DNA from: Liolophura sinensis
Taxonomy: Eukaryota > Mollusca > Polyplacophora > Chitonida > Chitonidae
Direction of reading: 5' to 3'
DNA length: 64,000 nt
Assembly (NCBI RefSeq): GCF_032854445.1
Contig: NC_088300.1
Span: forward strand, 77,181,966 to 77,245,965
Below are positions 5,801 through 52,900 of this stretch, in pieces. The position numbers and the translations under genes are program-made. Position 1 is the first letter of the stretch, and each line of letters starts with the position of its first letter. Under the pieces are notes generated by a model, which made no database searches, was not told the origin of the DNA, and saw only the letters and a program-made list of their open reading frames with translations.

Positions 5801-8800
5801 ATATTTACACAGTACACTAACATGTGTATGTCGTTAAAATGTCGTTCAAAGTTCTTTGAACATGGCGTATGCTTTATTTTCAACAAACTGAAATGTAGTG
5901 TATTGATGAATTGAGTGAAATATTTTAAATACTTGTGACCATGTTGTTTTTGCAAATAATTTCCATAAGGCAAAGGTGGAACGTGTCATTATCGATGGCC
6001 TTGGGAGAACGAAGGATGACCTTATTGTCAAACAGGTCAAGGACATCTTTCAGGCTGACAACTTTCAAGAGGTGAGTCTTTTTGTATCAAATATGAAAGA
6101 TTTCTTGTTTAACAGCATTTGTTAATTAATAGGGCCGTGTTGAATGATCTCCCTTGATATCACTTTCTTAAATGGTACGTTTCAGGATTAAGCTGTGGTA
6201 ATATAGGACTGCTGAAAATGACCAATGGCGAGTTTCAAAGTTGAATCGGACCTGCCTTCAAGATAGATTCTAATTCAGATTGCCTTATGAAAAGTCATGT
6301 GTTGTATTGTACAAGTGATGTACAGCTTCAGTGAACTCTGCCAAATATGCGTATCTTACCTAAGCTAAAATTTGGGACTCTAAATGGCTAATTTCATGTT
6401 TTTGTGCAGTTTGTTTCTCAAAATCTAATCTCACGGTACATCATAGCGGCTGTCGTGTGACAAGGACGGTGATTCATTAAAGAGAGTTTTGTTTTTATTA
6501 TCCTTCTTCAGCATTACAGCCATTGGGAGATGTGTTTAAATATTGGTAAAAATAAAAAAATGAATGCTGATGCTATTTTGTGATTTTTTGTTCTTTCCGC
6601 CCAGATGATAAGGAGGACTCATGAAGTTAAATTGCGTCTGGAGCGATTGGGGATATTCAAACATGTTGCCATATTTGTGGACACGAGTAAAGGTACTGTT
6701 GACTACTTTTAAAGTAAATCATTTCATTTTTGTTTTGTTTTGATTTGTTTTTGTTGTTTTTTTTGAAGATGACAAAAGGATACATCGAAACTTGAGAATG
6801 ATTTATTTATTTTTTGGATTGATATTTTATGCCATACCCCAGAATATTTCACTTATACAACATCAGCCAGCATTATGATGGGAGGAAACCTACTTAAGCC
6901 CGGAGGAAACCCGCCACCATCGACAGGTTGCTGACAGACTCTCTAGAATGAAGAATATCATTTGAAGGAAAATGTTAAGTTGGTCTGTCAACCACCTTTT
7001 TCTCATTTTGTCTCAATGAGAGATGCAGGAAAAATATTAGTGGAATTAAGTCCCCTTTGAAAATATCATACTTATACACTCACGGTATATTTTTCATTTT
7101 ACCCATGCGTATATTTTGTGAAAGGGGTTATGTTACTATGGACATGCCTCAGATAAATATCTTATGTTTGGCGTAGAGGTTTATTATAAGGTGAACTAGG
7201 CCTCTTTTTCACACAAGGGTTAGAAATTTGCTATATAGGTTTACATCTAGGTGAGCTGCTTTCTTATTAAACCGGGGCAGATCCAGTAAAATTTCAGATT
7301 TCCGTGGCAACCAACTGGAAATAGTTCATTTATGTGAACATAACCATGGTAATAGTCGTCTTGTTTAACACAGGGAGTCAAATTTTCTGATATAGCTCAG
7401 TATGGAGGTGAAGTACTCTCCAATTTAAACTGGAGCTAACTTGTGGTTTCTTAGCAACCAAATAATGGTTTCTTAGCAACCAAATAATGGATGTTGAAAT
7501 GGATTGTTTTGCAGTTTACAGCTCGTTAGTTCTGTACATACAAAGCTGTTGTTGTTTTATAACATATGGGTGATTTTTTGCAGGCCCTGATGCAAAGCCT
7601 AATGGGTATGAGGTGATCTTTGAGGTGCAAGAGCTCAGACGTGTGGCAGGAGGTATCAGCACACTGATAGGTCACAATGATGCTAGTGTGGTGAGTTGAG
7701 AGGGATCAAAACACTGATAGGTCTCAGTGATGATAGTGTTGTGAGTCAGGAGGGATCAGCACACTAATAGGACACAGTGATGATAGTGTGGTGAGTCAGG
7801 AGGATCAGCACACTGATAGATCACAGTGATGATAGTGTGGCGAGTCGGGAGGGATCAGCACACTGATAGATCACAGTGATGATAGTGTGGTTAGTCGGGA
7901 GGGATCATCACACTGATAGATCACAGTGATGATAGTGTGGTGAGTCAGGAGGGATCAGCACACTGATAGATCACAGTGATGATAGTGTGGTGAGTCAGGA
8001 GGGATCAGCACACTAATAGGACACAGTGATGATAGTGTGGTGAGTTGAGAGGGATCAGCACACTGATAGATCACAGTGATGATAGTGTGGTGAGTCAGGA
8101 GGGATCAGCACACTGATAGATCACAGTGATGATAGTGTGGTGAGTCAGGAGGGATCAGCACACTAAAAGGACACAGTGATGATAGTGTGGTGAGTCAGGA
8201 GGATCAGCACACTGATAGATCACAGTGATGATAGTGTTGTGAGTCAGGAGGGATCAGCACACTAATAGGACACAGTGATGATAGTGTGGTGAGTCAGGAG
8301 GATCAGCACACTGATAGATCACAGTGATGATAGTGTTGTGAGTCAGGAGGGATCAGCACACTAATAGGACACAGTGATGATAGTTTGGTGAGTCGGGAGG
8401 GATCAGCACACTGATAGATCACAGTGATGATAGTGTGGTTAGTCGGGAGGGATCAGCACACTGATAGATCACAGTGATGATAGTGTGGTGAGTCAGGAGG
8501 GATCAGCACACTGATAGATCACAGTGATGATAGTGTGGTGAGTCAGGAGGGATCAGCACACTAATAGGACACAGTGATGATAGTGTGGTGAGTCAGGAGG
8601 ATCAGCACACTGATAGATCACAGTGATGATAGTGTTGTGAGTCAGGAGGGATCAGCACACTAATAGGACACAGTGATGATAGTGTGGTGAGTTGAGAGGG
8701 ATCAAAACACTGATAGGTCTCAGTGATGATAGTGTTGTGAGTCGAGAGGGATCAGCACACTAATAGGACACAGTGATGATAGTGTGGTTAGTCGGGAGGG

Positions 8801-11800
8801 ATCAGCACACTGATAGATCACAGTGATGATAGTGTGGTGAGTCGAGAGGGATCAGCACACTAATAGGACACAGTGATGATAGTGTGGTGAGTCGGGAGGG
8901 ATCAGCACACTGATAGATCACAGTGATGATAGTGTGGTGAGTCGAGAGGGATCAGCACACTAATAGGACACAGTGATGATAGTGTGGTGAGTCGGGAGGG
9001 ATCAGCACACTGATAGATCACAGTGATGATAGTTTGGTGAGTCGGGAGGGATCAGCACACTGATAGATCACAGTGATGATAGTGTGGTGAGTTGAGAGGG
9101 ATCAAAACACTGATAGGTCTCAGTGATGATAGTGTTGTGAGTCAGGAGGGATCAGCACACTAATAGGACACAGTGATGATAGTGTGGTGAGTTGAGAGGG
9201 ATCAAAACACTGATAGGTCTCAGTGATGATAGTGTTGTGAGTCAGGAGGGATCAGCACACTAATAGGACACAGTGATGATAGTGTGGTTAGTCGGGAGGG
9301 ATCAGCACACTGATAGATCACAGTGATGATAGTGTGGTGAGTCGGGAGGGATCAGCACACTGATAGATCACAGTGATGATAATGTGGTGAGTCAGGAGGG
9401 ATCAGCACACTGATAGGTCACAGTGATGCTTCATTTTGAACTGAACATCTGAGATAAGATATATTGAATAGTAATTCATATATCAGTTTTGCAACCTATG
9501 TTCGGATTATTTGTTCCTGTTTGTTAATATTGCTGTATAGTGAAGCATTGCAATCATTGTGAGCTTATGCTGAATCCTCAATAGCCTTACTGTTAATTAT
9601 TCTGTGTGTTACAAAAATAGCTCTTGAAATTCTTGTGAATATAATGTAGTATCAGCATTTCCCTGATGAGTTTTTTCTTCCTCAGTATAATCCAGCTCAT
9701 GCTGGCCTCCATTGTACATATAGTGAAATATTCTTGAATACCGTGTAAAACTCCTATCAAAGAAATTAATGCCTTTCTTTGTCTCAGCTTTTTAACCTAA
9801 GACTTCCTAATGTGTTTGGTCGAGCTGAGAAAGTTCAGATGGAGTACACACATGGTACGAAGCAAAATCGTGGCTACAATCTCTTTGTCAGCAAGCCATT
9901 AGGAGGAAACCCAGATATCGTGTGAGTTTTCATTTTTTTTTTAATTATTGAAAGTGATGAACTCATTGAAAAACTTATATCTATACCAGTGCAAAGCTTT
10001 AAATTTGAGAAATAAATTCATATATTAATTAAAATAGACAGTTATTGAGATCTTATGGATTCAGCCTTAGTTTCATATATTTATGCTTATGCACACACTT
10101 TGCTTTACAATTGTTCAGATTAAGTTCAGGGGTGTACCAGGGTCATGGGGAATACCCATGGAGTGGTTATAAGGAGACAGACCGAGGAGTTTCTGTGGAT
10201 CTCACAGTAAGTTCCACTGAGGGAAGGATAAATCATTCGGAGACTGACGGATCTGGTTTGGTGTCTGAAATAGAAATACTGTATTATTGTGCCCAAATTG
10301 CATATAAACCGTCCTTTCGACAACAAAAACTTTAAACATTTCTTGTCTGGATATAAAGAAACTATGACATTTCTAGTGGTGGTGGTGAGATAAGAAGACT
10401 CATTTTTATGTCTGGATTAGTGTTCTTACATGTACTGATGATAGTGCATGTTCTGAAACATTGCCATTGAGACTGTAGCTGTGTGAAATGGATGTGTCCT
10501 TATACATGAATTTGATAGCTTGGTTGTTGCTCAGATCATACTCTGTCTTCTGATCGTATTATACAAAGCATAAGGCTATATCTGTAGGATAGGTGTCCTA
10601 ACTTAATAACCCTTCCTCCAAATATTCAGGTCTTCCTCTGACCTATGCTATAGATAGTGGAAGCTTTTTGTATTCATTTCATATTTAGAAAATATTCATT
10701 AAACGGTCATCCTGTTTTACATGGGTGAATAGCTGTTGTAAAAATAAAATTTGAATTACACATCAACACCACCAAAATTCCTTTATTAAGCTTGTGACCT
10801 AAATTTGATTATATACGTATCTATTCTGGGTGTTTCTAATTGTGAAAATGAAATGAAAAATGCTTGCATGATATGGCATTTAAAGCTGTAGCACTATAAC
10901 GCCTGGATAACTGAATACACAAACAGAAGAATTAGATGTTTTACTCAAACCTGTGTGTGGGGCTGAAAAATTTTCCATTCAAAAGTATGTATCAGAGAAT
11001 TAAGAGAATTTGAGTGTTAAGTAGATATCTTGTTTGGTGTGTTCAATAGTTTCCATCGTTTCTTGGTGCGCACTGTGTGAAGTGGGAGGGTATGTGGAGA
11101 GACTTGCGAGCTCTCTCTCCAACCACTTCGTTTGCTGTCAGGGAACAATCAGGTCATTCTGTCAAGTCATCTTTTAAGGTAACTTTTCATAAATACACAT
11201 GTTTTCTCTATTAGCCTTTCTTCATTGGTTTCTCCCACCATAATGCTGGCCACTGTTGTGTAAATGAAATATGAAACCAACCTTTGCTTCTCCCAACCTT
11301 GAATATATATTTCCCCCACCCTTCATATTAAAGTTGGCTTTGGTGGCAGAATGTGATGACAGTGGTCACAAGGCTTGAGGTCACAAGGTTTGTTGGCCTT
11401 CCTATAGTATGACAGGCACACTTAGGTCAGCCTGCACTTAGGAACCTGAAGCATTTGAGGAAACGTTTGTCAGTTACATCTATGTGTACGTGAATATGCC
11501 AAAGGCTAGTGGTTTACTCCAGGCATTCTGGTTTACAGTTAATGACTGGTTTACTCCAGTCATTCTGGTTTCATATGTAAAACTGATCATTGCTGACAGG
11601 TTAAATATTTAACAATACATTTTAGTCTCTAGATGTGGGCCAGTTGATGTTGGCCAGAATAAAGTAAATAAATAAATTTATTACTTATCCCAAACAAACT
11701 AACCAAAATACAAAATTCAATAGTGTCAGTGTCTTTAATTTCACAGAAGAGAAATCTGAAAAGTCAATTGGTATCAATAGTAATAAGATGGATTTGATTT

Positions 11801-14800
11801 GGGTTTTTTTTTGTAGGGAAAATGAAAATAAACCTGTTAATTTCTCTCTCATTTCAGCACATCTTAGTGCGTGACAAAAGAGATGATCCAGTTCTACCCA
11901 GCAGGGGGACACTACTCCGTCTGGTTCAGGTGGAATATCTAGCGGACAGATCTCCACTCATCACACGTTGCACTTTAGACTTCAGATTTGTATCTTAATG
12001 TTAAACTGACATTTGATTCGAAGCATTTTGTTTCTAACAACAGAGTTAAAGTCCATCTGATAGCTCAAATATGTAATATTTGCGAGGTCGTACACTTTAA
12101 GCTTTTTCCAGCACTTACACATCACAGGGAGAACAGAGTGTGCATTCTTACTTCACAAATGAACTTGAAGGAGAAGTCAGGTCACACCCTGTGTCTAAAT
12201 CAATCAGTTTCTGTATCTGTACTACCTGTTTTCAATACTTTGTACCACATGACTTTGTAGTGCACTTTATTATGTCTCAGTGATGCATATTTACATGACA
12301 AGCTGTTTATCTGACAATGATCCGCACTGTATGTTGTTGTTGTACACTAATGAGTGATCTTGTTGTTCCTAGGAGTATGCGGGTGTGGGTGGAAATGTGG
12401 AGTTTGTCAAACACGACCTGGAGTTTCAGATTAACCAATCTTTGATATGGGATACAGTGAGTATAGGCGACAGTTACTAATTAGAGTTGTCCAGCATGGC
12501 GTAATGATGGGTTTTTTTGTCATGGCTGAATTAAAGTTTTATGTACTGTGCCTTCACAAGTTCTGTGTGAAGACAAGAAAAGTAAAGGAAGAAGACTTTG
12601 GTTTGTCTTAAGCCAGTGAAGTCAGATGTTGAGATTCTTCCCTTCAGTTTAGTTTGTGACTGGTCCGCCTGTGCTAAGGCTGTCGAATTGCTCTAACCTT
12701 TAGGCTTACCCTGTGACTTATCAAAGAAAGGTATTGTAGTGAAAGTATCATATTCCACCCTCTCATTCCATTTTGTCGTTTGCCTTTGTCGCAGGTAGTA
12801 CAATTGTCCCTGGCAGGAGGCATTATGAAGTCTCTTGACCCGACCAAGGACCTGAGGGTCAATGACCGGTTTATGCTGGGTGGACCCCTTACCCTGCGGG
12901 GTTTCAACCTCAAGGGTGTGGGCCCTCACAGCGATGGTAAGACACAACATGGTGGAACAGACATGGATTCAAACTTATGTACATTTTACAGTATAGCAAC
13001 AGAAACAGCAGAGTGGTGGACCAGGAAATTTTTCATTCTGACACTTACACCACAACTTTTTTCGGAGTAAGCGGTTTGATTCAGACAAAAATGGAGACAC
13101 TATATTTAAAGACTTCTCTGTCATACCCTGTTTTCATTAATATATCTGTCCCAATTCTGCAAGCTTTCTTTTTTTCTAAACAAAGACATGTTGAGATGCT
13201 TCTGTTAGTAATTTTATTGTGGAGACAAAACTACACATACATTAGCTGGATTGCCATTAGAGGCAACAGAGCTTCACAGATGACTTTGCTTCTGTTAGTG
13301 TCAACGGAAATAACAGTGACATCAAAACAGGATTACCAGTACATACATATTTAGCAAATTTCCAAAAAAGTTGAAGAATTACCATAAGCCTTTTCTTTTC
13401 ATGAATGATACTGTAAATCTCAACCTTCTTGATCTCTAAAGCACTTTTTTCAGTGGAATTTATGCATACAAATTATTATCTAATTGATGCTAAAGTGATT
13501 TGTTTTTGTCACAAACATGCAGTCTTTAATATAACTTTGCAAATTAGTTAACCATCCCATAGTTCTCTCAGAATGTTTTAAAATAATTGAATGCAGAGGC
13601 AGTTTAAATACTGCCGATCTCTGCTTTTAAATAACTGAGAAAATTGATTGCCTCTCTCAGTATATATGCCAAAAGTGATATGCTAAGCTGATTGTCTTGT
13701 CTGGATATGAAGGGACTGCGACTGTGAAAAATGCTTTTTGTTTTCCAGGAAATGCCCTAGGAGCTGACACCTACTGGCTGTGTGCTTTTCATATGTACAC
13801 ACCTTTACCATTCAGGCCTGGCAAAGGTGGATTCGGAGAACTCTTCCGTAGTCATTTCTTCATCAATGCTGGGAACCTAGGCAATTTAAACTTTGGTAGG
13901 TTATACTGCATAATACATGTCAAACAACAATGTGGACAATATTTTGGGGTCAAATGTCATTTGCTTGTGAATTTAAAAAGAAACAAGGAAAGGGAAGGAG
14001 GATTTAATATTCAGTTGACTTCATCATAATGGAGAGGATGTCAACTTAGTTCACGTGTCAACAGGTAAAATTTGCTTGTGATAGGTTATAAATCAGGGAT
14101 AACACATTGTATACCATGAGATTAGCATATTAGTCAGATGTTAAAATAATGTGAGAATTAACATTGCTGCAATCTAGACATGTATCAGCATCTTCTCAGC
14201 TAGGTGCTCATGAAGGCAGTCTTCAGGGGGAATAACTGATGTATTTTCCTAACAGTACCACAGGAAAAGTTTGTCCATTTATCAATACAAGACATTTTCT
14301 TTAAGAAATATTCTAAAGTTTCTCCCTTGTCAGTACCTTAAGATATTGTCGTTGGGTTTATGGCATAGCCTAGCATCTGTACACAAAACATTTGTTTTGT
14401 GACAGTGTTGTAGATTTAGTTTAGTGGAAAAAAAAAAACAAAATTTTCTTATTTCCGTCTTAATTCATGTGTGACTGTCTGTGTTGTGGTACAGATGGGA
14501 GCCTGAAGGAGAAGGTACTAGAGCTGGGTGAGGCTTTGAGGTGGTCATACGGAGGAGGGGTGGTACTAAGGATGGGCAGAGTGGCCAGGCTGGAACTCAA
14601 CTATGTCATACCTATGCAAGTACAGAGAGGTGATAGGTAAGTGTGGTCAGATGGTCAGCTGCAATACCGTACTTTACCCATACCTTAAGTTTGCTATGTA
14701 ACAAGCACACCAAGGCCTTAAAATGCCAATTTTAAATAACACTTAAAGATGGATAAAACAAAGCTCAGATGCAAGAGTTTTGAAAAGTTAGTTATAAATA

Positions 14801-15434
14801 TGGTCTTAAATTTTTTTTTTTTTTTTGATTTTTCTTTAATGAGAAAGAGATATTTAATGAGGGATATATTGTCTTATGCGTAATAATCTTCTGAGGACAT
14901 CATGCATTTGTTACAAAAATATGAGTGCTAGAATTTGGTCTTACCAGCTAACAAATGTGCTTAACCTGAACTTTAATCATACTTATATTTTTAATATATT
15001 CATAAATATTATCACAATTAAGATTAAAAGTATGTGTTCATCATCAAATTACGCTCTAATGAAGCAGTATAATTTTAAAAAGTTTTGGTCATTTTCTCTA
15101 ATTCGCTTTTTGAGACAGTAATGTGGTAGAATACTTTTCTTCTAGTTTGTTTTTCAACATAATGCAGTGAAATTGCCACACATGTGGATGAATATTTAAG
15201 CTAAAAAAATTGTCCCACACATTTTTCATATCTTTTCTAGGTTTAAAGATATTAGTAAAAGAATATGAAAGTTTCCAAAACTCTCTCCAATATGAAATTA
15301 AAACTATTGGAAGACGTAATTTAGAACAATATTAGTAATGTGTGACTGTCTGAAGTGTAACATTGCACATATTTGTTTTATTTTGCAGCCTCAACCCTGG
15401 AGTGCAGTTTGGGATAGGCCTGAGCTTCTTGTGA
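2813..15434 (+). CDS. SAMM50: SAMM50, sorting and assembly machinery component 50
   Basis: Core Omp85-type beta-barrel of the mitochondrial outer-membrane SAM complex, which inserts beta-barrel proteins and helps keep MICOS/cristae contacts. Exons (all GT-AG, phases consistent): 2813-2833, 5105-5164, 5970-6071, 6605-6692, 7584-7690, 9788-9921, 10119-10206, 11050-11178, 11858-11929, 12373-12456, 12795-12936, 13749-13895, 14495-14636, 15389-15434. These sum to 453 aa (human 469). The start encodes MGTVHAK, matching the conserved vertebrate N-terminus, in a good Kozak context. A POTRA domain (about residues 28-110) carries the conserved GLGRTKDD. The barrel follows, with ETDRG, FAVRE.SGHS and the Omp85 loop-6 motif LRGF (RGF at 330-332). 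The protein ends [11 protein letters not shown], a typical C-terminal beta strand. The exon 1 donor (GTCAAA) is weak and the exact exon 1 end is less certain. Neither end looks truncated. Confidence 0.95.
3829..4072 (+). mobile_element. SINE family A in SAMM50 intron 1
   Basis: The body carries GGCCGTACGTGGGAAGGTC and GGTTGTGGGCTT. The tail GTACGACGTAAAACACC is followed by AATCAAGTAAATAAATTAATAAAT. The tRNA-like head is degraded. It is in the same orientation as the gene, within intron 1. Confidence 0.75.
4968..5040 (+). mobile_element. SINE tail fragment (family C-like)
   Basis: A short fragment reading AAAAGCCTGGCTGTCATC, then ATATTGAGTAAGGGATTAAAACACG. It matches the end of the element at 27640-27835 rather than family A. 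It lies about 65 bp before SAMM50 exon 2. Confidence 0.5.
6799..6944 (-). mobile_element. SINE family A fragment, reverse orientation
   Basis: A reverse-strand 3' half of family A in a SAMM50 intron. It runs from an A/T tail (TTTATTTATTTTTTGGATTG) through CAGAATATTTCACTTATAC and CAGCATTATGATGGGAGG to the ACAGGTTGCTGACAGAC block. The tRNA head is missing. Confidence 0.7.
7444..7490 (+). repeat. 22-bp direct duplication
   Basis: The unit TGGTTTCTTAGCAACCAAATAA occurs twice back to back with no mismatch. It lies in the SAMM50 intron about 95 bp before exon 5 (7584-7690). No function is evident. Confidence 0.7.
7649..9438 (+). repeat. 50-bp minisatellite made of SAMM50 exon end plus splice donor
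   Basis: About 35 tandem copies of a unit of roughly 50 bp fill most of the intron after exon 5. The unit contains the last part of that exon (ATCAGCACACTGATAG...AGTGTG) and its 5' splice site (GTGAGT). The first unit is the real exon end (donor at 7691). At least three subtypes alternate: CTGATAGATCAC, CTAATAGGACAC and AAAACACTGATAGGTCTC. The last copy (about 9399-9430) again ends like the exon (GATGCT), not like the array (GATGAT). Nearly every copy retains a GTGAGT or GTTAGT donor-like hexamer. Confidence 0.95.
9687..9770 (+). mobile_element. SINE family A fragment
   Basis: A short internally deleted copy: CCAGCTCATGCTGGCCTCC joined directly to the tail GTGAAATATTCTTGAATAC and TAAAACTCC. 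It ends just before SAMM50 exon 6 (9788), so it contributes DNA close to the splice acceptor. Confidence 0.6.
11231..11275 (+). mobile_element. SINE family A fragment
   Basis: A short fragment reading CTCCCACCATAATGCTGGCC then GTAAATGAAATAT, the late body of family A, in a SAMM50 intron. Confidence 0.4.
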
Positions 15435-16375
15435 TAGGGGGTTTCCAGTAGGAATTCCGTGTACTGTAGAGTGTGAGCTGTGGTAGAGAGCCGACATTAT
15501 CAGATGATCACATGTGAATGGACAAATCGTGGCAGACCATCAGTATCAGTACTGATTAAGCAGTGAAACAGTGCTATATCTTCTGGTGTTGTAAATAATG
15601 GACTGATCTGACTATGTGAAGCAGAAAGATACTGAAATAATTATGTAATTGTAAACACAAGAAATTATATTGGACACGCCAGGGAATATTGTAAAGGATT
15701 TAAAAAAAATCAATTATAAGTTATAGATTTTCTATCGCAATTTTGACATCTTTGAATCAGTTAATTTTCTGTTCAGGCATGGGAAGGTCTGGCAGCAACC
15801 TGCAGATGGTTGTGGGTTTCCCTTAACACCCACCAAAGATGCTGTTCTGATATTCACCAATATAACTTCTTTCCTTTTGAATGTGACAAAGTTCATGTTC
15901 ATGTAATTCTTTTTTGCAAGTGAAACATTTTGGGAGCATTGTACTCGTTGTAGACTTGACATAAGAAATGTGTAAAGCTCACAACCCCCCACTTTGAATC
16001 CAGCCCTTGTTGGATAACGTATAGATTTCAAGGTATGGACAGCAAATTTCAGCAAAAATAACCAAAAGAAACATACCAAATATAATAACTGAAATTATGA
16101 ATGAAGTCTGTTAGAGATTGCTTCATCATACCGAGTCTTGGTCCGTTACAGCGCAGTGTGAAAATCAGCTCAATAAGTCTTAGTGTGTTGTTCGAGACAC
16201 GCTTTTGCATAACTGTCTTATTCATTTGACTGTGTTAGTTAGCTACATTAAGTTGGCTTACCAAAAACGGTTGAAAACACATCATGGTCTTTTGATTAAG
16301 CCTTCCACTACGAATTATTCTGAAGTTTATTCCCTGACATTTTTGCATAAAGACAATTTATCATGTATAACATTA
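15435..16375 (+). other. SAMM50 3' UTR and downstream flank
   Basis: Non-coding sequence after the SAMM50 stop. I see no AATAAA in the first 300 bp, so the polyadenylation site is unclear. A 60-bp SINE family A fragment (GGGAAGGTCTGGCAGCAACC) lies near 15780-15832. A 115-codon ORF on the minus strand here has no recognisable domain and overlaps that fragment, so I do not call it a gene. Confidence 0.45.
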
Positions 16376-16636
16376 GGCGTGGCCTACTGGTTAGCATGCT
16401 AATGGCAGCACAATGACCCAGGAGCCTCTCACCAATACAGTCGCTGCCAGTTCAAGCCCAGTTCATCCTGGCTTCCTCTCTGGCCGTACTTGGGAAGGTC
16501 TTGCAGCAGCCAGCAGATAGTTGTTGGTTTCCCCAATCCAGTTTCCACGAACCATAATGCTGGCTGCCGTTGTATGAGTGAAGTATTCTTCAGTACTGGT
16601 ACAACGTAAAACACCAATGAAATAAGTAAATGAATA
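16376..16636 (+). mobile_element. SINE family A, near full length
   Basis: One of the most complete + strand copies. The head reads GTGGCCTACTGGTTAGCATG (A box) and GCCAGTTCAAGCCC (B box). The body has ACCCAGGAGCCTCTCACC and GGCCGTACTTGGGAAGGTC. The tail ends AACGTAAAACACCAATGAAATAAG. Confidence 0.85.
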
Positions 16637-17775
16637 TACATTAGCTTTGAATACAATTTATTCAGTGTAATAAACTTCACTGACTACTGAAAATATTATT
16701 AGTGGTGTCGGAAGCAGCACTATTCATCAAAAGAAATAAATGAATAAATCAAAAGTAATGTCAAACCAATTTAATTGCGACCATGCATACATATGTGCAC
16801 TGTAGACTGTTAAGCACATAAAATTACAGTGGATCTGTGTGCTGGGATAGTCAACAGATGGCCGTACTACTTTCAAACTGCTTATGACCCACAAGTATAA
16901 TGGAAAATAGACTTAACAAAGTATACCTTCACAATCCAAGGTATACCCTATGATCTTGGTTTCCAGACCAATGTTTTCACAAGCTGCTCTCCATCCTAGA
17001 TCTGCAAAATTAGCAAATAATAAAATTTCTGGAAGATTCTCCATGGTTAACAGGCTGAATCTTCTTTATGACCATGACCAGCAGGTTATGTCATTTGCAT
17101 GCAGAGACATGCAAAGACTGACAATCTAGATGTAAGTATACGTTATCTTTGGAAGTCAACTACATGTACATTAGTAGTTGTCATTTTAGCTCAGCTAGTT
17201 TTGATAACTGAAGTAGTGTCCTTAGGTTAAATACCTTGCCAGCTATACATTGTGCTATACAGTTGAGAGGTCAGCTTTAGCCTTGTTTGCACAAGTGATA
17301 TCCTTGCAACAGTAAGAAATGTGGGTAGGACCTGACTAGATCTGGGTATGACTTTGCAATGTCACCTTATGTACAACTTCCCTATAATGATGTTTACCTT
17401 GCTTGTTAATCCTGACCTGCTTGCACGACTTTCTAATCAGAATGATTAATTAGGTGTAATGGTTCCCTCCACTGTCCATTTTGTTCGCTTGCCACCAAAA
17501 ACCTGCATGATCATCACTTTTTGACGTTGGATTTGTTGGGGCTTAATTATTGCTGATATCTGTGTACTGATGACTGTGAGTGGTCATGGTGCTTGTCTTC
17601 CAATGATGAGGACACAGGAGGTGCACGTGCAAAGATGGCCTTGAACAGAGAATGTATAGATTTCCCTGCTCTCCCTGTTTGTAAGGTCTTCGTGACAAAA
17701 GTCTTGTTGACGCCTGTGTGGAAGCTTGTGCAGACTTAACTTCATTTGAATGCGCAATCTGTACAAATGTAGGCC

Positions 17776-18034
17776 TACATTTATTTATTTATTCGATTTT
17801 TGTCTTACATCTTACTCAAGAATATTTCACTTATATGACGGTGGACAACATGATGGTGGGGGGAAACCAGGCAGAGCCCAGGAGAAACCCACGATTACCC
17901 ACAGGTTGCCAACAGACCTTCCCACCTACGGCCTGAGAGGAAGCCAGCATCAACTCATAGCGACCGCATTGGTGAGAGGCTCCTGGATCCTTGCGCCACA
18001 CTGGCGTGCTAACCACCTTGGCCACGGAGGCCCC
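17776..18034 (-). mobile_element. SINE family A, near full length, reverse
   Basis: A complete reverse copy, from TTTATTTATTTATTCG through AATATTTCACTTATATGACG and GAGGAAGCCAGCATCAACTC to the tRNA-like head ACCACCTTGGCCACGGAGG at its right end. GTAGGCCTACAT repeats on both sides (17771-17782 and 18033-18044), a possible target-site duplication of about 12 bp. Confidence 0.85.
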
Positions 18035-18860
18035 TGTAGGCCTACATCACACATAAGAGTTTGTCAGTAAACTGCCCAAGGTCAGCCATTTACCTACCCA
18101 ACCAACCTCCACCCACGAAACTCACTCTGACTGCCATCACATGTGAAAAGTTCTGGAGCATGGTGTTCAACAACAATCAAATACAATTATTATGATTTTA
18201 ATATTTCGTAATGATTTTGAATCATTCAAAATATTTTCAAAGCCTGAAAATGATAGGATATTGTATAACAAATATGAATTAAGCCCTTACACTAAAATTC
18301 ATTTTTAAATACTTATATCAGGTGTAAAGCTTTCGAAATCATTTTTAAAGCTTTGAAGAAATACGTGTCTGTTTTAACATGTAATTAAAACCAACAGTAG
18401 GGTATCCACTGCAATACGTCGGTAAGCCGGCAGTGAAAGACCACAAATTCCTATTTACCTGTACTTGCTGTAGCCTACTTTTTTATATAATTTTAAGTGA
18501 ACTCATTTATGGATAAATTACATTACCAAATGAAATAAATATATCCGCCACACGGTGTCGCATTGAGTGAAAATGAAATTAATAACGCCTGTAAAAAAAC
18601 GTGTTTCACTTTCGAAGTCAGTACACATAAATTCCGAGAACACATAAAAGTTTTCCGAGTCCATTTAATGAAACGCGTAGGAATTCTAAAGGGCACGGGT
18701 ATCAAACATAGGGAAGTCCACGGTGCCCTAAATATTATTTATACTAATCTCTTGGATATGAAACAGAACATGACAGTTTCTAGAGGGCTTCGATGCTATC
18801 CTCATGCCCAGGAATTATTGGTGGTAAGTTTTGATGTTTCTCGTATCTTTTTTGAAAATG

Positions 18861-26160: not shown

Positions 26161-26387
26161 AAAAAGAACTGAAAACGTCGCGGCTACTGACGCTACGTTG
26201 ATCATGCTATTTTCCAACGTTCCTAGATTCAGCTGTTGTTAAGCGAATTTCATGTAATTTGCCACACTGACAACCAGTATTGCAGCATTGGTATAAGTTC
26301 TGATACTTTTCCCTGTGAACCGCAGGTATTTATGAAGTACAGCACTTGATAAGGCCAACAACGACAGCGTTTTTCTGAGGCGCCATT

Positions 26388-29300: not shown

Positions 29301-29653
29301 CTGATCTTCAGGCGTACATGCATACGGCAAAACCTCTGGCACTGAGTCCCGCGCAACTCGACATGATGCCAGTCAGCACAACCTCCTGCCCCGACATCAG
29401 CTGGTCACCTACCGCAACAGTCAAGCAGTTGTCCAGCTGCGTGACGTCATCCCGTTTTGTTCAGTTTGAACAACCAAGGCATGTCAAAATGGCTACGGTT
29501 TTAGGCCTTGCTTGGGTTTACGTTGCCGTGATGGCAATATTCAATATGACAACCGACATAAGTTACGCCCCTTTCATGGCGTACGCTGAAACTGTTAATG
29601 GATACATAACGCATTCTTTCAATGCGTGGTATGACAGTGAGCTCTGGTTTTAG
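26388..29653 (+). CDS. Unrecognised C-terminally anchored membrane protein, short paralogue
   Basis: I do not recognise the family. Exons 26388-26745, 26934-27100, 28030-28217 and 28654-29653 (phases 1, 0, 2) give 570 aa. The start ATG has A at -3 and G at +4. Exon 1 holds an amphipathic helix at about 26-45 (VIYECVSTISDLIQRQLERF) and a second conserved block around residues 70-94 (IRSLSEDIRALF). Exons 2 and 3 look like coiled-coil or helical-bundle sequence (VDDLKQQLGTLQSRLREME; YRAAQELGTTTG). Exon 4 is mostly polar and disordered. The protein ends with one membrane segment (about 517-536) and a 34-residue tail ending ELWF. With no signal peptide, a tail-anchored or type II orientation is likely. 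The convergent gene at 30846-39839 is its paralogue. A poly(A) signal lies at 29756-29761. Confidence 0.8.
27640..27835 (+). mobile_element. SINE-like element, family C
   Basis: Lies in intron 2 of the 26388 gene. The body reads GTGCTTTACTCCGGGCACTC and CGGTTTCCTCCACCG. The tail CATATAAGTGAAAAGTTGTT then GGGATTAAAACACC resembles those of families A and B but is distinct. Related fragments lie at 4968-5040 and near 11516. Confidence 0.55.
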
Positions 29654-30845: not shown

Positions 30846-30847
30846 TT
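30842..30847 (-). terminator. Poly(A) signal overlapping the stop codon of the long paralogue
   Basis: On the minus strand the gene ends TTC TAA TAAA, so the stop codon (30848-30846) lies within AATAAA. If used, the 3' UTR would be only some 10-30 nt. Confidence 0.4.
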
Positions 30848-39800: not shown

Positions 39801-39839
39801 TCTCTCCCATTCTTCTAGATTTATCCGTTCGTCACTCAT
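30846..39839 (-). CDS. Unrecognised long Ser-rich C-terminally anchored protein, long paralogue
   Basis: Exons 39839-39422, 38660-38512, 37670-37492 and 36897-30846 (phases 1, 0, 2) give 2265 aa. Exons 1-3 are homologous to those of the 26388 gene: helix MLYRCIVSITELINQQIERL (about 45-64), block MRSLSEDAWTIFHSL (about 93-107), then VGDLRDQLERLVSR and FYEAAKEMGTFAG. The 6-kb last exon is Ser/Asn/Asp-rich and largely disordered. It repeats a helix like LFExTIRQLNEMI at about residues 675, 784, 904, 1014, 1175 and 1273, and has CPVC (about 1341) and CPKC (about 1459). A membrane segment at 2211-2233 is followed by a 32-residue tail ending NGACF. Both paralogues carry an ISW motif before the membrane segment. 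I know no function. Annotation pipelines might call it serine-rich adhesin-like, which composition alone would explain. Confidence 0.82.
33755..35640 (-). repeat. Degenerate repeat of about 110 codons within the long paralogue
   Basis: Six copies of an amphipathic helix (pattern: aromatic or Leu, x, x, Ser/Thr, hydrophobic, Arg, x, Leu/Ile, Asn, Glu, Met/Leu, Ile) are spaced 98 to 161 residues apart, mostly 109 to 120. The best copies are FESTIRQLNEMIAGKIISAA and FENTIRQLNEMISNKILSAA. The two CPxC motifs downstream are 118 residues apart, close to the same period. This suggests growth by duplication of a unit of about 110 codons. The same helix pattern occurs once in exon 1 of both paralogues. 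Confidence 0.7.
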
Positions 39840-40011
39840 TTTCTCACATGGTGACGCTCGAATCTGGTCAATAAAGGTTTAGGTCTAACCGTAACCCGCC
39901 ATCGTGGTACCAACCGGCGAGTTGTGCAACAGCAGTAACCATGTTTAACAATGGCGATTCACGTTGTCACAACAGTTGTTGCTACCAAGAGTCGACGTAA
40001 CAAATTTCGGA

Positions 40012-41057: not shown

Positions 41058-41266
41058 TATTTATTTATTTATTTGATTGGTGTTTTTTACGCCGTACTCA
41101 AGAATATTTCACTTATACGACGGCGGTCAGCATTATGGTGGGTGGAAACCGGGCAGAGCCCGGGGGAAACCCACGACCATCCGAAGGTTGCTGCAGACCT
41201 CCCCACTTACGGCCGGAAAGGAAGCCAGCATGAGCTGGACTTGAACTCACAGCGACCGCAGACTAC
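41058..41266 (-). mobile_element. SINE family A, well preserved, reverse
   Basis: TTTATTTATTTATTTATTTG, GCCGTACTCAAGAATATTTC, ATACGACGGCGGTCAGCAT, GGGCAGAGCCCGGGGGAAAC, AGGAAGCCAGCATGAGCTGG, ending in the B-box part of the head. It is close to the family consensus, so probably a recent insertion. Confidence 0.85.
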
Positions 41267-42260
41267 ATGTTTATATACATGTACGTTGCAATCCACTTCC
41301 TGCTTAACTTAGGGTCCTGAGAAATCTAGGATAAACCAAGCGCTGGTAAATTTGGATTTAACTACAGCTTGAACTTATCATTCACGAGCCTATTCCACAA
41401 AGCCTGTTTGAAGCCACATGCAAATGTTAATCAAATTCGTATTTGCACACCCTATGCAAATTAACTCGAAAACACCTTACAAATATGACCGATCATTAAC
41501 ATGTTGAATTTCTGGTATTATAAATATATTATGAAACGACGTTTTTAATTTTGAAACAAAAATCGTTCTGATGAATCCATGGCAGGTTTGTGGAAAGAAA
41601 GGTACACGACCAGCTTCAGCATATGCGCACTTTTGTCCTTCTACGATGACAAACTTCTTGTTGCTTGTGGCAGTTGTTGAAGTCATGTCTAGTCATTGAA
41701 GGCCTTACGACTTTGGACTGAACAGGTACGCAACGACTGGAGCACAAATCCAGTTGAGTCGCGTTGTTGTTTAGCACGCATGAGGATGTGATCAATTACA
41801 TATCTCGAGACCCTGTTGCATTAACATTGTATTGTTTTCCTACGATTAGGGCCCTTTCAACATCATTTGTTATTCCTTATGTACAACAGGTCAATCCCAA
41901 TGGCTATAATGATGCTACCATATTTACTGTTGTCTCACTGGAATGTCTTTCTAAGTAATCAGCAGACAAATACATGTAGTATCTCATACAGCCACAGTAG
42001 ACACCTGACAAACCTACCTGTCCTATTCCTTTATGGTGTGAAGGCCTGTTAGCAACCTGCGGGTGGTTGTGGGTTACCTCAGAGTTCTATTGATTTTAGA
42101 AAGGTGCTTTGAGGTTTGCTTTAAACATGGAATATATTCTACTGGAAACTTGCAAGTTTTGGCACCAAAAATAATATATTGTGACATTTATTTGCCTCTA
42201 AACATGCACTTTTGTGGAAGATATTTTAGGTGATTAAGAGTAGTTCTGTGAAGTTTAAGT

Positions 42261-42450
42261 GTCTTACTTCTCACCTTATTGAATAGAAAACAGATTGGCT
42301 GTGGCAATGGCCCCTGGTATAGTGTCTTCTTTCTCAGGTTATTCAATAGAAAACAGATTGGCTGTGGCAATGGTCCCTGGTATAGTGTTTTATTTCTCAC
42401 GTTACTGAACAGAAAACAGATTGGCTGTGGCAATGGTCCCTTGTATAGGC
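42261..42450 (-). repeat. 63-bp tandem repeat, three copies
   Basis: Three near-identical 63-bp units, each containing AACAGATTGGCTGTGGCAAT. Since 63 is a multiple of 3, the array is open on both strands, giving a 21-residue repeat (QGPLPQPICFL on the minus strand). One unit contains AATAAGGTGAGAAG, a donor-like sequence. I do not consider it a gene. Confidence 0.8.
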
Positions 42451-43929: not shown

Positions 43930-46900
43930 CTACATGAACACATGCAGCCTGCCGCTAGAGTTACCTCCCACTACCACAGGTCGTGTAGGATGAAAGGCAT
44001 TCTGGGAACATACTGATCCCAAATATTCCTCATCATCAAATGTGTGCACCAAGTTCCCAGTCAAGTCGATCACCTCAATCTGGAACGTAAATCAACATCC
44101 AGATTAACAATTAAAATTTTCACAGAGAAATATGCACACCTGTAAGTTCTGACCATTTCAGCATAAGTTTAGAATGGTGCAATTTGAAAGCATCATTTCA
44201 CAGACTAAACACCATCCTGTTCAGAAAATATTTAAGAAACCTGTCCAGATCAGGTAACATTCTATTAAGACTAATATGCCAAAATATGCACCATCTGATT
44301 ATGTGCCCCAAAGTTTCCTGTACCAGCTGACAAAGGCTTCTTTTTGACAGTATCCATGCACATGTGTTGAATGTCTTCTGGGTTTCATCTGAAGGGCCTC
44401 ATGAGTGGAGAAATTTGGAAAGTGCAGAATAAACCACAGGCCTTTGGCAAGTCACTGACAATCTTTCCTCTGTGTTGGAATACACGTGTATGTCATATTG
44501 GTCGAAGACTAATCTCAAGCAAACTTCCCTTGAGGCCAAGCAGCACAGTGGACAGCTTGCTGCCACCAAGACCATGGGAACTATGGAAGCAGGTGAATAC
44601 AAACAATTCCCTGTCCAAGTCTGGGATTGAACCTATGACCCAAGTGTCTTAACAGACAAGCATCTAAACCACTAAAACCCTATCCTGTTTGGTGTCCTAC
44701 AGACTCTAAACCACTAAAACCCAATCCTGTTTGGTGTCCACAGACAAGCATCTAAATCACTAAAACCCAATCCTATTTGGTGCCCTAACAGATAAGCATC
44801 TAAACCACTAAAACCCGATCCTATTTGGTGTCCAAACAGACATGCATCTAAACCACTAAGACCTGATCCTATTTGGTGTCCTCACACACAAGCATATAAA
44901 CCACTAAAACCCGATCCTATTTGGTGTCCTAATACACAAGCATCTAAACCACTAAAACCCGATCCTATTTGGTGTCCAAACAGACATGCATCTAAACCCC
45001 TAAAACCCAAACCTTTTTGGTGTCCTAACAGACAAGCATCTAAACCACTAAAACCCAATCTTATTTGGTGTCCAAACAGACAAGCATCTAAACCACTAAA
45101 ACCTGATCCTATTTGGTGTCCACAGACAAGCATCTAAACCACTAAAACCTGATCCTATTTGTTTACTGAATTAAAGTTCGGGACCATATTCAGTTATACA
45201 TTACCTGGCGTTTTCTTGCTGAATGTTAAATTTAATATGTGTATGGGTGGCAGGTGAAGAGTGTGATTGGCATGTAAAATGCAGCAGAGACAGACGAAAT
45301 GCAAGAGTGGCTGACAAGTAATGTAGATAACACAGTTCAGTACTCGGGGTATAAACACAAGTAAACAATAAGTGCACCACACACAAACTAACAAATAAAT
45401 CCCGATTCAATCACACGTGGAATGACATCCTCATGGCTGCACTCTTTCCTCCACCCATTTAGCTGACCCCAGCTGTGTGAGAGAAAAAATCATCACTAAG
45501 GACAAACACAAACAAAAGTAAGCCCTCCTAGAAAGGGAAGATCACTCACTCGTCTTGGTCGCTCCATGCTTCCGACAACGAAGATGTCCTCTCTGGCAGG
45601 ATGCCATACAGCTCGAAACACAGTCAACCAGCGACCAGTGTAATTATTGTGTCTGATAACAAAGGATCAATGTCACTGTATAGTCAAAACTTGAAGATGA
45701 CACACAAGAAAGAGTTCACTGGAGGTATTCATGTTACCTAGTACAGAGTAAAATACAATCATAATTTTATTTAATTTTCTAGTACCGTGGACCCACACAA
45801 CATGGCTGTGTAACAGCTTTAATTTATTTATATATTTGGTACTTCACACCTAACTAACAAATATTTCAGTGAAAGCCTGGGGGGCAACCCACAACCATCC
45901 ACAGGTTGCTGGCGGATGAGAGTGGATGCCGGCATGAGCTGGAGTTAAACTCCCACCAACCACAATGGTGACAGGCTTATACGCCAGTGTGCTGTGCTAG
46001 CAAGATAACCATTCCACAACTGACGCCACCTAAACAATCAATATAACTGTGTCAGTGAGGCAAATTTATTTACAAAGCCTATAATAACATTAGATTAAAA
46101 TCGAGTACATAAAACGACAACTGTAAACACAACACTATGGGCTTACCTTATAGCTTTTTTCAAAGGGATTTTTGTTGTTAGGGAAGAACTGTCAAACACA
46201 CTGAAGTTAGACAGAAAATTAATAAACTATAGTCATATCTAGGAAACTTTGCAATTATTATTATTAAACTTTAAATTCACTTTGGGATCAGTAGTGACAA
46301 AAAGACATTCCTTGGTCGTACTAACATTATATACAAGAGACTTCATTTATCAGGGTCCTTTCTGGTAGGTACCGCGGTATAACTGATAATTTCTACATAT
46401 TGGATCTCGACATGTAATGCTGTACGTCAATCCAGCTCCAAAGACAACAAAAGTACAGGTATAGATAAAGCTTAATACACAAAAAGCACATGTATTATTA
46501 CTTCAAATGTAAGGAAAATCGAACATCAACTGCACGGAATTTCTATACCCCCACCCCCTCCCCTGTTCTGTGTCACAATTTGAATCACAACTTACCTGAG
46601 TTTATCATCCATTGATGTTGTCAGGATGAAATTGCCAGTGATTGGGGAGAAATATGCAGAGTTAACTCCCTTGCCATGGTGAAGGTCAACAATACTGGAA
46701 TTGTTTTTCTTCATACCACTCTTGAGATTTCTGATATCCCACAAAGATACATTCCTGAAACACAACATAAGCTTCAACAACTACTGTTGGCATAATATCT
46801 GATGTGAATAAAAGACTGTCCAAACTCAAACCATAGTTATCCTGTGCAAACACACCAATAACTTTACCACATTGGGCTACCGATGTGTAAGTCAGATATT

Positions 46901-49900
46901 CTTGAGTAGGATGTAAAACATCAATCCAATAAATAAATACTACACTGGAAATATGATGAGACACTACTGTTAGGGCTGTTAAATAAACGTAAGACCACAA
47001 TATCTGTCAGCACCAGGTATGTCCATAAGCTAACAACAGGACAAGAAACTGGAATCATTTTTAGTTCACCAGTTTGTATTTGAACAAAAAGGAAAAAAAC
47101 TTGTACAGCCTGTGGAGCTCTAATGGACAAGAGTCCTGCTTAATGAAACCTGATGCACTAAAGTCAGATGGCTGAACTGTCTGGCGCATCAATATGCATG
47201 TAGGACAAACTAAAACATACCAGCATACCCCATTACTACAACATGGGAGACTTTGAGAACAGCCCAGGATATTTTTCATATTATTCTCCTTGAAAATATC
47301 CTTAAGTCCCAGTAAAGTGTCAGAAAACTTAAAATACATGAAATTTTCTGATTTGCATATGACTGCTGCAGGTTACTAGGGTTTAACATGGATACAAACC
47401 ATGTGGGTTTGTTTGTCCTGCTGAGCAGGAATCTTTACGGTGTCCTCTCAAAACAGTTATCTCCCATATTCAGCAGTTCAAGTGAAAGGCAAAATCATTG
47501 GATATATATTCTTGGAAATAACAAATACAACACAGGACAGTTTACTCTTCTGATGTAGTACTACATAAACTGTTATCAAACCTTAGAAGCCATCATTTGC
47601 ACAAGAATATCATCATACAATATTTGGCCTGATAACAAAACCTTACCCATCCGCACAACAAGTACTGATGAAGTGTTTTTTGTGAACTGGATAACAAAAC
47701 CTTACCCATCCGCACAAGAACTGATGAAGTGGTCTGTGTGAACTGGATAACAAAACCTTACCCATCCACATAACAAAATCTTATCCATCCGAACAAGAGC
47801 TGATGAAGTGGTCTCTGTGAACTGGATAACAAAACCTTACCCATTCGCATAACAAAACCTTATCCATCCGCACAAGAGCTGATGAAGTGGTCTCTGTGAA
47901 CTGGATAACAAAACCTTACCCATCCGCACAAGAACTGATGAAGTGGTCTCTATGAACTGGATAACAAAACCTTACCCATCCGCATAACAAAACCTTATCC
48001 ATCCACACAAGAGCTGATGAAGTGGTCTTTGTGAACTGGATAACAAAACGTTACCCATCCGCACAAGAGCTGATGAAGTGGTCTTTGTGAACTGGATAAC
48101 AAAACCTTATCCATCCGCACAAGAGCTGATGAAGTGGTCTCTGTGAACTGGATAACAAAACCTTACCCAGCCACACAAGAGCTGATGAAGTGGTCTCTGT
48201 GAACTGGATAACAAAACCTTACCCATTCGCACAAGAACTGATGAAGTGGTCTGTGTGAACTGGATAACAAAACCTTACCCATCCGCACAAGAGCTGATGA
48301 AGTGGTCTTTGTGAACTGGATACAAAACGTTACCCATCCGCATAACAAAACGTTACCCATCCGCACAAGAGCTGATGAAGTGGTCTTTGTGAATTGGATA
48401 ACAAAACCTTACCCATCTGCATAACAAAACCTTATCCATCCGCACAAGAGCTGATGAAGTGGTCTTTGTGAATTGGATAACAAAACCTTACCCATCCGCA
48501 TAACAAAACCTTATCCATCCGCACAAGAGCTGATGAAGTGGTCTTTGTGAACTGGATAACAAAACGTTACCCACCCGCATAACAAAACCTTATCCATCTG
48601 CACAAGAGCTGATGAAGTGGTCTTTGTGAACTGGATAACAAAACGTTACCCATCCGCATAACAAAACCTTATCCATCCGCACAAGAGCTGATGAAGTGGT
48701 CTTTGTGAACTGGATAACAAAACGTTACCCATCCGCATAACAAAACCTTATCCATCCGCACAAGAGCTGATGAAGTGGTCTTTGTGAACTGGATAACAAA
48801 ACGTTACCCATCCGCATAACAAAACCTTATTCATCCACACAAGAGCTGATGAAGTGGTCTTTTTGAACTAGATAACAATACCTTACCCATCTGCACAAGA
48901 GCTGATGAAGTGGTCTTTGTGAATTGGATAACAAAATCTTACCCATCTGCACAAGAGGTGATGAAGTAATCTTTTTGAACTGGATGAACACTGACTGTAC
49001 GAAGAGGCTTCCTGTGTAAACTGTACAAACTCTCTGCTTCTGTCCTACAAAATAATCAATAACCAATTCTACAATGGTTTTTGGTTACAACACGAGGGGT
49101 GAGGTTAATGAAAATATTTATTTTTTTGACTGGTGTTTTACGCTGTACTCAAGAATGTTTCACTTATACGACGGCGGTCAGCATTATGGTGGAAAGAAAC
49201 CGGACAGAGCCCAGGGAAAACCACTACCATCCACAGAAGCCAGCATGAGCTGGACTTGAACTCAAAGCGACCGCATTGATGAGTGGCTCCTGGGTCATTG
49301 CGCTGTGCTAACCAACTGAGCAAAGGAGGCCCATGGTATGAAATATGTTGGTGACATACTAAAATATAGGAACAACATGAAATGGGAATGTTTGAAGCTG
49401 AGTAACATTATGTTTGTAGCAGGGTGGTATATAAGCGCTATCTACCTCCGGGTTAGAGGGAATTTCCTTTTAGTTTAGTGGCAGAAGCGTGGACTCCAAA
49501 TGCACAGATCGCAGGTTCAAATCTCCAGCTGGTAAGCCCCGTAACTTATATATGGCAACATCTGGCCACACTCAACATTTATTAAAACTATGCCAGTCAA
49601 TCTAACCTGTTTTTTTTTTTCTTTACTTCATCTGTTCGTATATTACAGTTCCAATATGGTCTTCCCAGTTTCCTACTTTCACAACATCCCAGTCTGAAGA
49701 TATGTTGCTCTCACAGGTTACACATACATTGCAAGGTAAATTTATCCTGCCTTTAATTTCTACCTAACAAGAGAAGATTCTCACTTCTAAGTACAAGGAG
49801 AGAATAGGTGGACCAAACATATCATGTTTGAGAAATATTAGTCATTTCTAGCTAAAGTATAGCTAAAGCCTCTTAACGCTGAACTCTTGGGCAAATATGG

Positions 49901-52900
49901 CACAGGGTCTTTTACCTACCTCAATTGGGTTATAGTCAAATAAGACCAAGACAATTTCTTCTCCAAAACATTCAAGAAGACTTCAGTTCACTATATTGAT
50001 GTACATGTAGTCCACAAGCCAAGGGCTGGTGAATCACTGAGTGGGAACAATCCAAATAAACCCTAACACCTTCTCTCTTACTTTACTGCTTTCCAATAAT
50101 GTTGGCAGTAATACTGTTAGGTACGGTAACCAGTCTGTCCTGTTCCCTCACCCTGGTGTCCTACGGTATACCATAGCCACACTGTTAGATACAGTAGCCA
50201 GTCTGTCCTGTTTGCTCACCCTGGTGTCCTACGGTCTACCATAGCCACACTATTAGATATAGTAGCCAGTCTGCCCTGTTTGCTCACCCTGGTGTCCTAC
50301 GGTCTACCATAGCCACACTGCCGTCAGATTGCCCAACCAACAGGCTATCCACATTCAAACACTCAAAGTTCCTGAGCAGTAAGTACTCATCCACTGGGGC
50401 TGAGTACACCTGGAATATAGGTAAAACATCACCTAACTACATAAATGGTCTGCTTATATATCTCATCTTCCACTGTAATTGGAGGCTTTCAGTCTTTGAC
50501 CACACATTTTTTTTGTATTTATATTCTTACAGAACGATCCTTCAGAACCAAAGAAAACTGAAATGTATTTAATATATTCAACAGTGATAATGAAGACATT
50601 AGGGCATTTGGAATTGGACCTCTTCACTTAACTACAGCAGAAGATATTCTGTATGTGTCCCTCAACTGCAAAGAGGCAATACTCTGCATTTCTATCTCTA
50701 TATGGTGAAGAAACACTTCTAGACCCTCTTTCGATCACCACCAAAAATTAATGGATTAGATCACAAGGTTAAGACCAAGATGTGCACAACATTTCATCCA
50801 GATACCTAGATTAACCTTTTCTGTAATGTTACTGAAAGACAGACTAATAAACCTCGGCAAAAACATAACTTGGGAAGTCATAAAAATGACTTACTACATT
50901 TCAAGTGTGACATAAGGTTAAACTTGTTCTTAGTGACTTATTTTCTAATTCAAAAAAGTCAAAAAAGCAGCCAGGTTTACCTCTTCAAACACCCCTCTGT
51001 CAAAATGAGCACATCTCAAGGACCCATCATAGCTGCATGAGTAGAGTCTATCTTGATGCCATGTGGGGAAGATAAGATGGTTCACAGGTCTGGAATGAGG
51101 TACTAAAGTCACAACTCCCTGCTGGTCATCTTCAATATCATCCTGTGAGCAGGAACAGGTACTTACCAAATAAATCGAGTCAGATTTGGTAAAGGGCACA
51201 TGACTGCTGATCACTGTAACATTACTTAATAAGAAATGTGCATGCACCGGGTGACAAAGTAGTTCAGGACTGAGTGTGTTCAAACTGCCAGCGACAAAAG
51301 TTTCTCCAAATAATGATTATTTATTTTATCGGTGTTTTACGCCATACTCAAGAATATTTACTTATACGACGGCGGCCACACTATGTTGGAAAGAAACTGG
51401 GCTCAGGGAACCACACGACCTTCTGCAGGTTGCTGGGTGAATTCACAGCGGTCACCTTGGTGAGAAGCTTCTTTGTCATTGTGCTGTGCTAGCACGCTAG
51501 CCCCTTCACATAATAAAGTGCAACTCCGGTAAAACATAGCAGCACTATGTGACACTTAGCCTGTCAACAAGCTTGTTTGATTAAGGTGGTAACCATACAC
51601 TGGCTGGCGTACTAAACACTTAAGATATTAAATATTGTTTGTACTGTGCTCAGACATGTACAATTGTCAGCTTACCACATCCCAAAGTCCTACTGCACCC
51701 CACTTCCCACCTCCTGCCACCAAAACCTTGTCACGTGTGGGGTGAATGGCCACAGAAAACACACGGTCAGGAACTACTTTAGCCACTCTGTCTGATGTCA
51801 ATTTGGTTTTTGCCATTGATTTTATATAGCTGGAAATGCAAAAAGATGATTTTAAGGTAAACCCTTGGGCATAACTTGTTACTTTATGCATTCAGTGAAA
51901 GGATACAGTAGAAAATATTTGTTTTATAACCATTTCACCAAATACCAGTAGTAATTACTTCTACACCCTTGTTTCTTTGGGATATCTTCTCAGTGCATTA
52001 CATCACCCCTGAATAAAGCTTACATTTTGCACTAATATTTTCTACCATGCAAAGACATACATGTACACATGTACTTTTAATTATGAAAGTAACAAAAATG
52101 CCAGTGTGCTTTATGGTTTAGTACACCTCTCAGGCTGAATGTTTACCTGTCCAGAGTACTCTTTGCCTGTTGACCACGGATAACCTTTGCTTTAGTGTCA
52201 GAGAAGTGCTCTATCTTCTCCCGTAGTCTGTTACAGTGGCCAATATCTGTGTTGCCATACAAACGGTCAGACATCCCCAGGGGTCCTGCAGGGGGCCGAG
52301 CCTTAACGAGGAAAGGGTCACAACAGATACGTTAGCCACTCTGGATGGATTTAGTGTGCTATTTTAATATTCTGGCATTCATCATCAAAAACATCGTTGA
52401 AACTTCTCCGAACTTCAAGTCGATGGCCACCATTGGCATTTCAAATCACCTCCAAAGGTCTCCTGTGCAGACTCATGATCTACACTGGCTCATTGGAAAT
52501 ATCAGTTTTTCCAGTTTATAAGCAGCCGAAGCATTGATAGTTATCCGTGCCTGTGACAGCCATCTTGAACTGCTGCCTGTATTTTGCTGGTTATTGGTAT
52601 ACTTTGATCTTTCTTACATTTACCTCACTGACAACTGAGAAATTCATGAAAATGGACATAGAACTTATTTTTAAATATTGTTTGCACCATGCACAAACAC
52701 TGCTATATAGGGACAGCATAACTGGAGCCCTTGGATTATTTTGAAAAACTTCACAAACATACCTAAGGATACATGAGGATGGTCTGCTAATTTATAGCTC
52801 CATATTCCACATGGTTGTTGACATACGGCCCTTTAGAAATGCCATGGTCTGTTCAATTTCTTGAAATGCTTATTTGTTCCAGAAGCATTTTTAGCAATTT

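Follow-up and report, generated by a model that had tools for sequence, protein, structure and literature searches.

Minisatellites straddling 5' splice sites in the chiton Liolophura sinensis, probably of the mirage type

Three minisatellites that extend from an exon across its 5' splice site (donor) into the intron were found in a stretch of 64,000 nucleotides from the chiton Liolophura sinensis (contig NC_088300.1; G000:C6:77181966-77245965, assembly size 609,464,459 bp), referred to below as the window. One of them is located in the SAMM50 gene on the forward strand, and two are located at successive exons of a WD40 gene on the reverse strand. These arrays are probably mirage-type minisatellites, i.e. 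tandem duplications that are tolerated while the exon-proximal donor works and that need no function. Minisatellites at exon-intron boundaries are already a published class, named "mirages" in amphioxus (PMC3087553, PMC3902484), and the initial annotation of the window, which was aware of no earlier account of them, was wrong on this point.

In a minisatellite-rich genome a short tandem duplication would occasionally reach across the 3' end of an exon and the donor that follows. The first copy would go on serving as exon end and donor, by which coding and splicing would be kept, and all later copies would be intronic, leaving the array free to expand, to contract and to be homogenised like any minisatellite. 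Duplications of this kind would survive because the exon-proximal donor is still present and no cost arises. They would be tolerated where a duplication inside coding sequence would not, and tolerance is probably lower at an acceptor than at a donor. We infer both this mechanism and the neutrality of the arrays; the reading is supported by a two-copy case in an aldehyde dehydrogenase gene, by recurrence in other genes and by the decay of donors in downstream copies.

Arrays A1, A2 and A3 in the window

Tandem Repeats Finder (TRF) delivered five arrays in the window after overlapping rows had been merged (period at least 10, score at least 100), and donors were placed via gene models with continuous reading frames. 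Taken together, these two sources bore out the earlier observation that three of the five sizeable arrays lie across donors and that the two genes concerned are unrelated and oppositely oriented. The SAMM50 gene (+) is modelled with 12 exons from 5105 to 15438, which give a single open frame when joined; an exon is possibly missing between 11929 and 12795, where we regard the join as uncertain. The gene product gives an Omp85 match in Pfam (E 1e-41) and matches to solved Sam50 chains in the PDB (best E 1e-45). For the gene on the reverse strand seven exons from 51142 to 43930 were assembled, with further upstream exons unplaced; from its sequence we take this gene to be WDR76-like.

Array A1 (7649..9428, +) comprises 35.7 copies of a 50-bp unit, 42 bp of which are exonic and 8 bp intronic according to TRF and the unit alignment, and straddles the donor at 7691. 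Copy 1 forms the 3' 42 bp of the SAMM50 exon 7584..7690, placed by the one-frame model and the Pfam and PDB matches, and its donor GT at 7691..7692 (GTG/GTGAGT) keeps the frame with exon 9788-9921. In the WDR76-like gene, array A2 (50113..50320, -) holds 3.1 copies of a 68-bp unit and straddles the donor at 50287; copy 1 is the 3' part of the modelled exon 50288..50409 (-), with its donor GT at 50286..50287 (AGG/GTGAGC). Array A3 (47631..48990, -), a union of overlapping TRF rows, has a 56-bp unit with a 23-bp subunit and 30 donor-context copies. It straddles the donor at 48942, copy 1 being the 3' part of the modelled exon 48943..49044 (-) with the GT at 48941..48942 (TGG/GTAAGA). The two other arrays, both on the reverse strand, served as controls and straddle no junction: one of 48 bp x 11.0 in an intron of the WDR76-like gene (44644..45161) and one of 63 bp x 3.0 downstream of its stop codon (42258..42448).

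The later copies of A1, A2 and A3 are all located downstream of the copy 1 donor. Splicing from this donor leads in a continuous frame into the next exon, on read-through a stop codon is reached 1-6 nt past the donor, and none of the units is divisible by 3. By this frame logic the copy 1 donor is presumably the one used in the mRNA. Scored with a simple donor matrix, it is no stronger than the intact downstream copies in any of the three arrays: it reaches 9.1 in A1, the score of most copies, 7.3 versus 7.7 in intact copies of A3, and 8.3 versus 8.3 and 8.7 in the other copies of A2. As each of the three introns contains unique sequence past the array, the arrays appear to lengthen the intron and are not the whole of it. 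At the exon edge the match walks on past the anchor used by 3 bp (ATC) in A3, 2 bp in A1 and 1 bp in A2, which is compatible with microhomology-based duplication but no proof of it.

Failed exon duplication, one of the explanations put forward in the initial annotation, was rejected in its whole-exon form, the copies containing exon ends only. A broader version, according to which the arrays are intermediates of intron gain or of alternative donor use, as has been put forward for amphioxus globin and described in human IFI6, can draw on published models (PMC3087553, PMC4974935) and, for alternative donors, on a chaperonin array with a unit of 66 bp (see below). In the window it meets with the unit lengths, the early stop codons and the unique intron sequence beyond the arrays, and we regard it as quite unlikely.

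Selection for U1-binding decoys in introns, by which premature polyadenylation would be suppressed (telescripting), was likewise considered, as many copies keep donor-like motifs; in A1, GT is kept in 34 of 35 donor contexts and replaced by GC in one. For decoys the donor motif should show stronger conservation than the other positions of the unit, and this was not found. The nine donor columns of A1 are about as conserved as the remaining unit (approximately 95% versus 94%, arithmetic from alignment column counts). In A3 the GT is lost in 10 of 30 donor-context copies and seven more read GTAACG, so that the donor is lost or weakened in 17 of 30. Moreover, each unit carries tens of bp of exon, which a decoy would not need. 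Telescripting is thus contradicted by the motif decay in A3, was rejected on this ground together with the unremarkable donor conservation in A1, and is highly improbable. With regard to homogenisation of edge copies versus inner copies, a variant GATGCT was seen by eye in the A1 alignment in copy 1 and the tail copy only.

Recurrence at conserved exons

Conserved exons were chosen by family, blind to arrays, from chaperonin (CCT), aldehyde dehydrogenase and myosin head genes. For CCT, 47 of 50 rows were used, the three others being long open frames without introns, and five of the 47 were dropped at the donor side as they held no donor scoring at least 5. Aldehyde dehydrogenase contributed 14 rows from a search that scored 13 of 97 candidates; 13 donors were tested after one row (L062, a terminal exon with stop codon) had been dropped. 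The myosin set consisted of the first 20 of 81 rows with no floor for the donor score; four of its donors scored 4.2-4.8, and the low-scoring L081 was still negative when retested at a better donor. Junctions in all three families were picked by script with the donor matrix, some of them checked by eye, and an alignment score of at least 25 was taken as a tandem copy across a junction. The short stretches hold about 130-280 bp past the donor, so that longer units were possibly missed.

A tandem copy across the donor was found in 3 of 42 CCT, 1 of 13 aldehyde dehydrogenase and 1 of 20 myosin exons, 5 of 75 in total. Acceptors yielded 1 of 61 (47 CCT and 14 aldehyde dehydrogenase); this sole case is an array that adjoins the acceptor and, judged by eye, matches at most about 5 bp of the exon; it scores 29 at the script-chosen acceptor and 18, below the cut of 25, at the hand-placed one. 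By the same test, a tandem copy is present at three of the 17 donors in the window genes and at none of their 19 acceptors.

The CCT cases come from two genes, one from L029 and two from L031. Besides its two donor-straddling arrays, L031 holds the acceptor array and an array starting about 12 bp past a donor, which was excluded from the 5 of 75. One of the straddling arrays (G000:C8:53405163-53406162) is built of 66-bp units, a length divisible by 3, and read-through there meets no stop for 432 nt beyond the first donor, the longest open read-through among the arrays tested; the downstream donors of this array could therefore give in-frame protein variants. The acceptor array and the one past a donor flank another CCT exon of this gene (G000:C8:53411173-53412900): the former, upstream, has a 41-bp unit and includes the acceptor signal, and the latter, from about 12 bp after the donor, is 27 bp x 42.8. 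The myosin case is L082, and the aldehyde dehydrogenase case, L060, consists of just two copies of about 37 bp across the donor, the second without GT. A further donor-straddling array was met in a random stretch (L009, 5922-6306), outside the 75 donors; judged by eye, the gene that holds it resembles nucleolin.

The row dropped from the aldehyde dehydrogenase donors, L062 (G000:C11:29422213-29422725), contains an array that crosses the stop codon into the 3' flank, with three copies of about 79 bp visible in the stretch. Here the first copy works without any splice site being involved, which speaks for tolerance of the first working copy, and not U1, as the common thread. This array and the acceptor-abutting one in L031 also speak against a common donor-specific process.

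Frequency at donors compared with chance

When each array is assumed to start as one unit placed at random, 0.06 straddling arrays are expected in the window for the 17 placed donors, and 0.14 if 23 further donors are assumed at random places. At least three straddling arrays then have a probability of 3e-5 and 2.4e-4, respectively, values which are post hoc because the window had been flagged for straddling arrays; with this restriction, the claim that chance rarely puts arrays at donors was confirmed. As a genome background, fixed positions on contigs C1 and C6 gave 32 arrays per 200 kb sampled, and 1.6-2.0% of 4000 random positions in this sample are first copies of a downstream repeat.

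The counts at conserved donors weigh against mere tolerance. The 5 of 75 lie above the random background of 1.6-2.0% (P 0.007-0.017) and above intron-interior positions in seven genes (17 of 2708, 0.63%; P 1e-4), and this donor excess conflicts with tolerated mirage-type minisatellites because tolerance predicts that donors are hit no oftener than the intron interior. Part of the excess may be a detection bias, as selection on the exon keeps copy 1 at the donor recognisable. The same excess, the three of five arrays in the window and the five CCT gene stretches, where 3 of 10 arrays straddle donors versus 0.26 expected (P 0.0012; the expectation is a low estimate because only 27 placed donors were used), speak for a mutational process linked to the donor, in which sequence at 5' splice sites would be duplicated in tandem more readily because of transcription, R-loops or bound U1.

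This process was confronted with counts of two donor heptamers in the whole genome. Tandem triples of GGTGAGT number 3773 versus 2462 for the reversed word (ratio 1.53), and single words 112,675 versus 63,364 (1.78); for GGTAAGT the triples number 2229 versus 3041 (0.73) and the singles 79,276 versus 103,429 (0.77). As the ratios for triples do not exceed those for single words, both heptamers enter tandem triples no more often than their abundance predicts, and the genome-wide excess expected from donor-nucleated arrays was not found. The test is coarse, being restricted to two exact words, three intact copies and units of 32-62 bp with overlapping matches counted, and not all words counted are real donors; on inspection, A1 is the sole straddling array described here that the test would pick up. 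Within the 200-kb sample the word GGTGAGT is rarer than its reversed form (13 versus 21), and a 2.5-fold tandem excess implied by those counts was overturned by the genome-wide count of single words. Dispersal of one array by a transposable element was rejected as well, the first 100 of the 3773 tandem GGTGAGT places being mostly different by eye, a comparison in which the units of A1-A3 were not searched genome-wide.

Random arrays are not clearly donor-rich either: among 31 with a period of at least 20, none has a donor score of at least 9 versus 3.5% of segments of the same length, and five have a score of at least 8 versus 10.8% of such segments. Donors (5 of 75) and acceptors (1 of 61) do not differ significantly by Fisher's test (P 0.22; P 0.04 once the window genes are added), and the array across a stop codon also speaks against a process tied to donors. 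Because heptamer counts match abundance and random arrays are not clearly donor-rich, the excess of arrays at donors is suggestive and not established. Of the common donor-nucleated process proposed in the initial annotation, the recurrence in independent genes and a frequency above background have thus held, and a donor-specific mechanism has not been established; we consider such a mechanism unlikely. It is correspondingly doubtful that minisatellites arise preferentially at the 5' splice sites of expressed genes, several-fold above the surrounding intron, through duplication linked to transcription or to exon edges. If they did, about 1 in 15 conserved donors would carry a mirage, and the genome would offer a natural library of competing tandem donors.

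Other observations and relation to known arrays

Two further genes of the window, at 26379-29653 (+) and 30846-39878 (-), resemble each other by eye in their N-terminal segments (RVIYECVSTISDLIQRQLERFP / RMLYRCIVSITELINQQIERLP), and one of the pair holds an open frame of 2032 aa; Pfam gave no match for the pair. No Pfam match was obtained for seven open reading frames of the window. A dispersed, tRNA-like short element (CTCAGTTGGTTAGC... GTAAAACACC), by eye probably a SINE (short interspersed element), has copies at about 49110-49330, 51340-51560, 45870-46030, 16380-16660 and 17780-18040. Outside the window, a haemocyanin gene (G000:C8:37880506-37891931) shows eight PF14830 matches in a row, approximately 1.4-2.0 kb apart, each unit in an open frame of 429-529 aa; a layout of eight units is typical of molluscan haemocyanin and agrees with a mollusc genome. 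The random stretch L022 (1-2582, 7590-9972) contains a long, repetitive coding-like frame with EYGEPSGDGKTPMIPGQEGI-type repeats.

The amphioxus mirages are minisatellites that span exon-intron boundaries and are described for the globins BflGb6 and BflGb9 (PMC3087553), for Adh3 (Canestro et al. 2002, as cited by PMC3087553) and for troponin C (TnC) and PGBD5 (PMC3902484). Regular splicing is said to be undisturbed there, length and somatic instability are reported and a model of intron gain is given (PMC3087553). A1, A2 and A3 resemble them in a repeat unit that spans the exon-intron boundary and in minisatellite size, with units of 50, 68 and 56/23 bp in 35.7 copies, 3.1 copies and 30 donor contexts, respectively; splice signals in many of the copies and unit lengths between 10 bp and about 160 bp are likewise shared. 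The arrays described here differ in their mollusc host and in lying mostly at 5' splice sites, whereas both boundaries are concerned in amphioxus, and they are known from the sequence of one assembly.

A tandem unit that supplies repeated splice donors at an exon end is also described for the minisatellite of human IFI6 (6-16) (Turri et al. 1995, via PMC4526556). There two downstream units are reported as alternative donors, whereas downstream donors in the window arrays would add stop codons, since no unit length is divisible by 3 and a stop follows within 1-6 nt; frame-safe downstream donors were not found in them. A tandem duplication across an intron-exon boundary is reported from potato (PMC4974935). 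Intron-creating duplications (the Rogers model; ATP2A1, cited to Hellsten 2011) share a duplication across or near a splice boundary; unlike in these, where a new intron is made, an existing intron appears to be lengthened here.

No molluscan mirages were among the matches listed in a limited search of the open-licence literature, and the novelty is that a mollusc is added to a little-known class named in amphioxus. The probable mirage-type arrays in this chiton come with a first rough rate, 5 of 75 conserved donors. They provide natural test cases for spliceosomal choice between nearly identical donors in tandem, they are possible intermediates of intron growth or gain, and they warn gene annotators of false extra donors.

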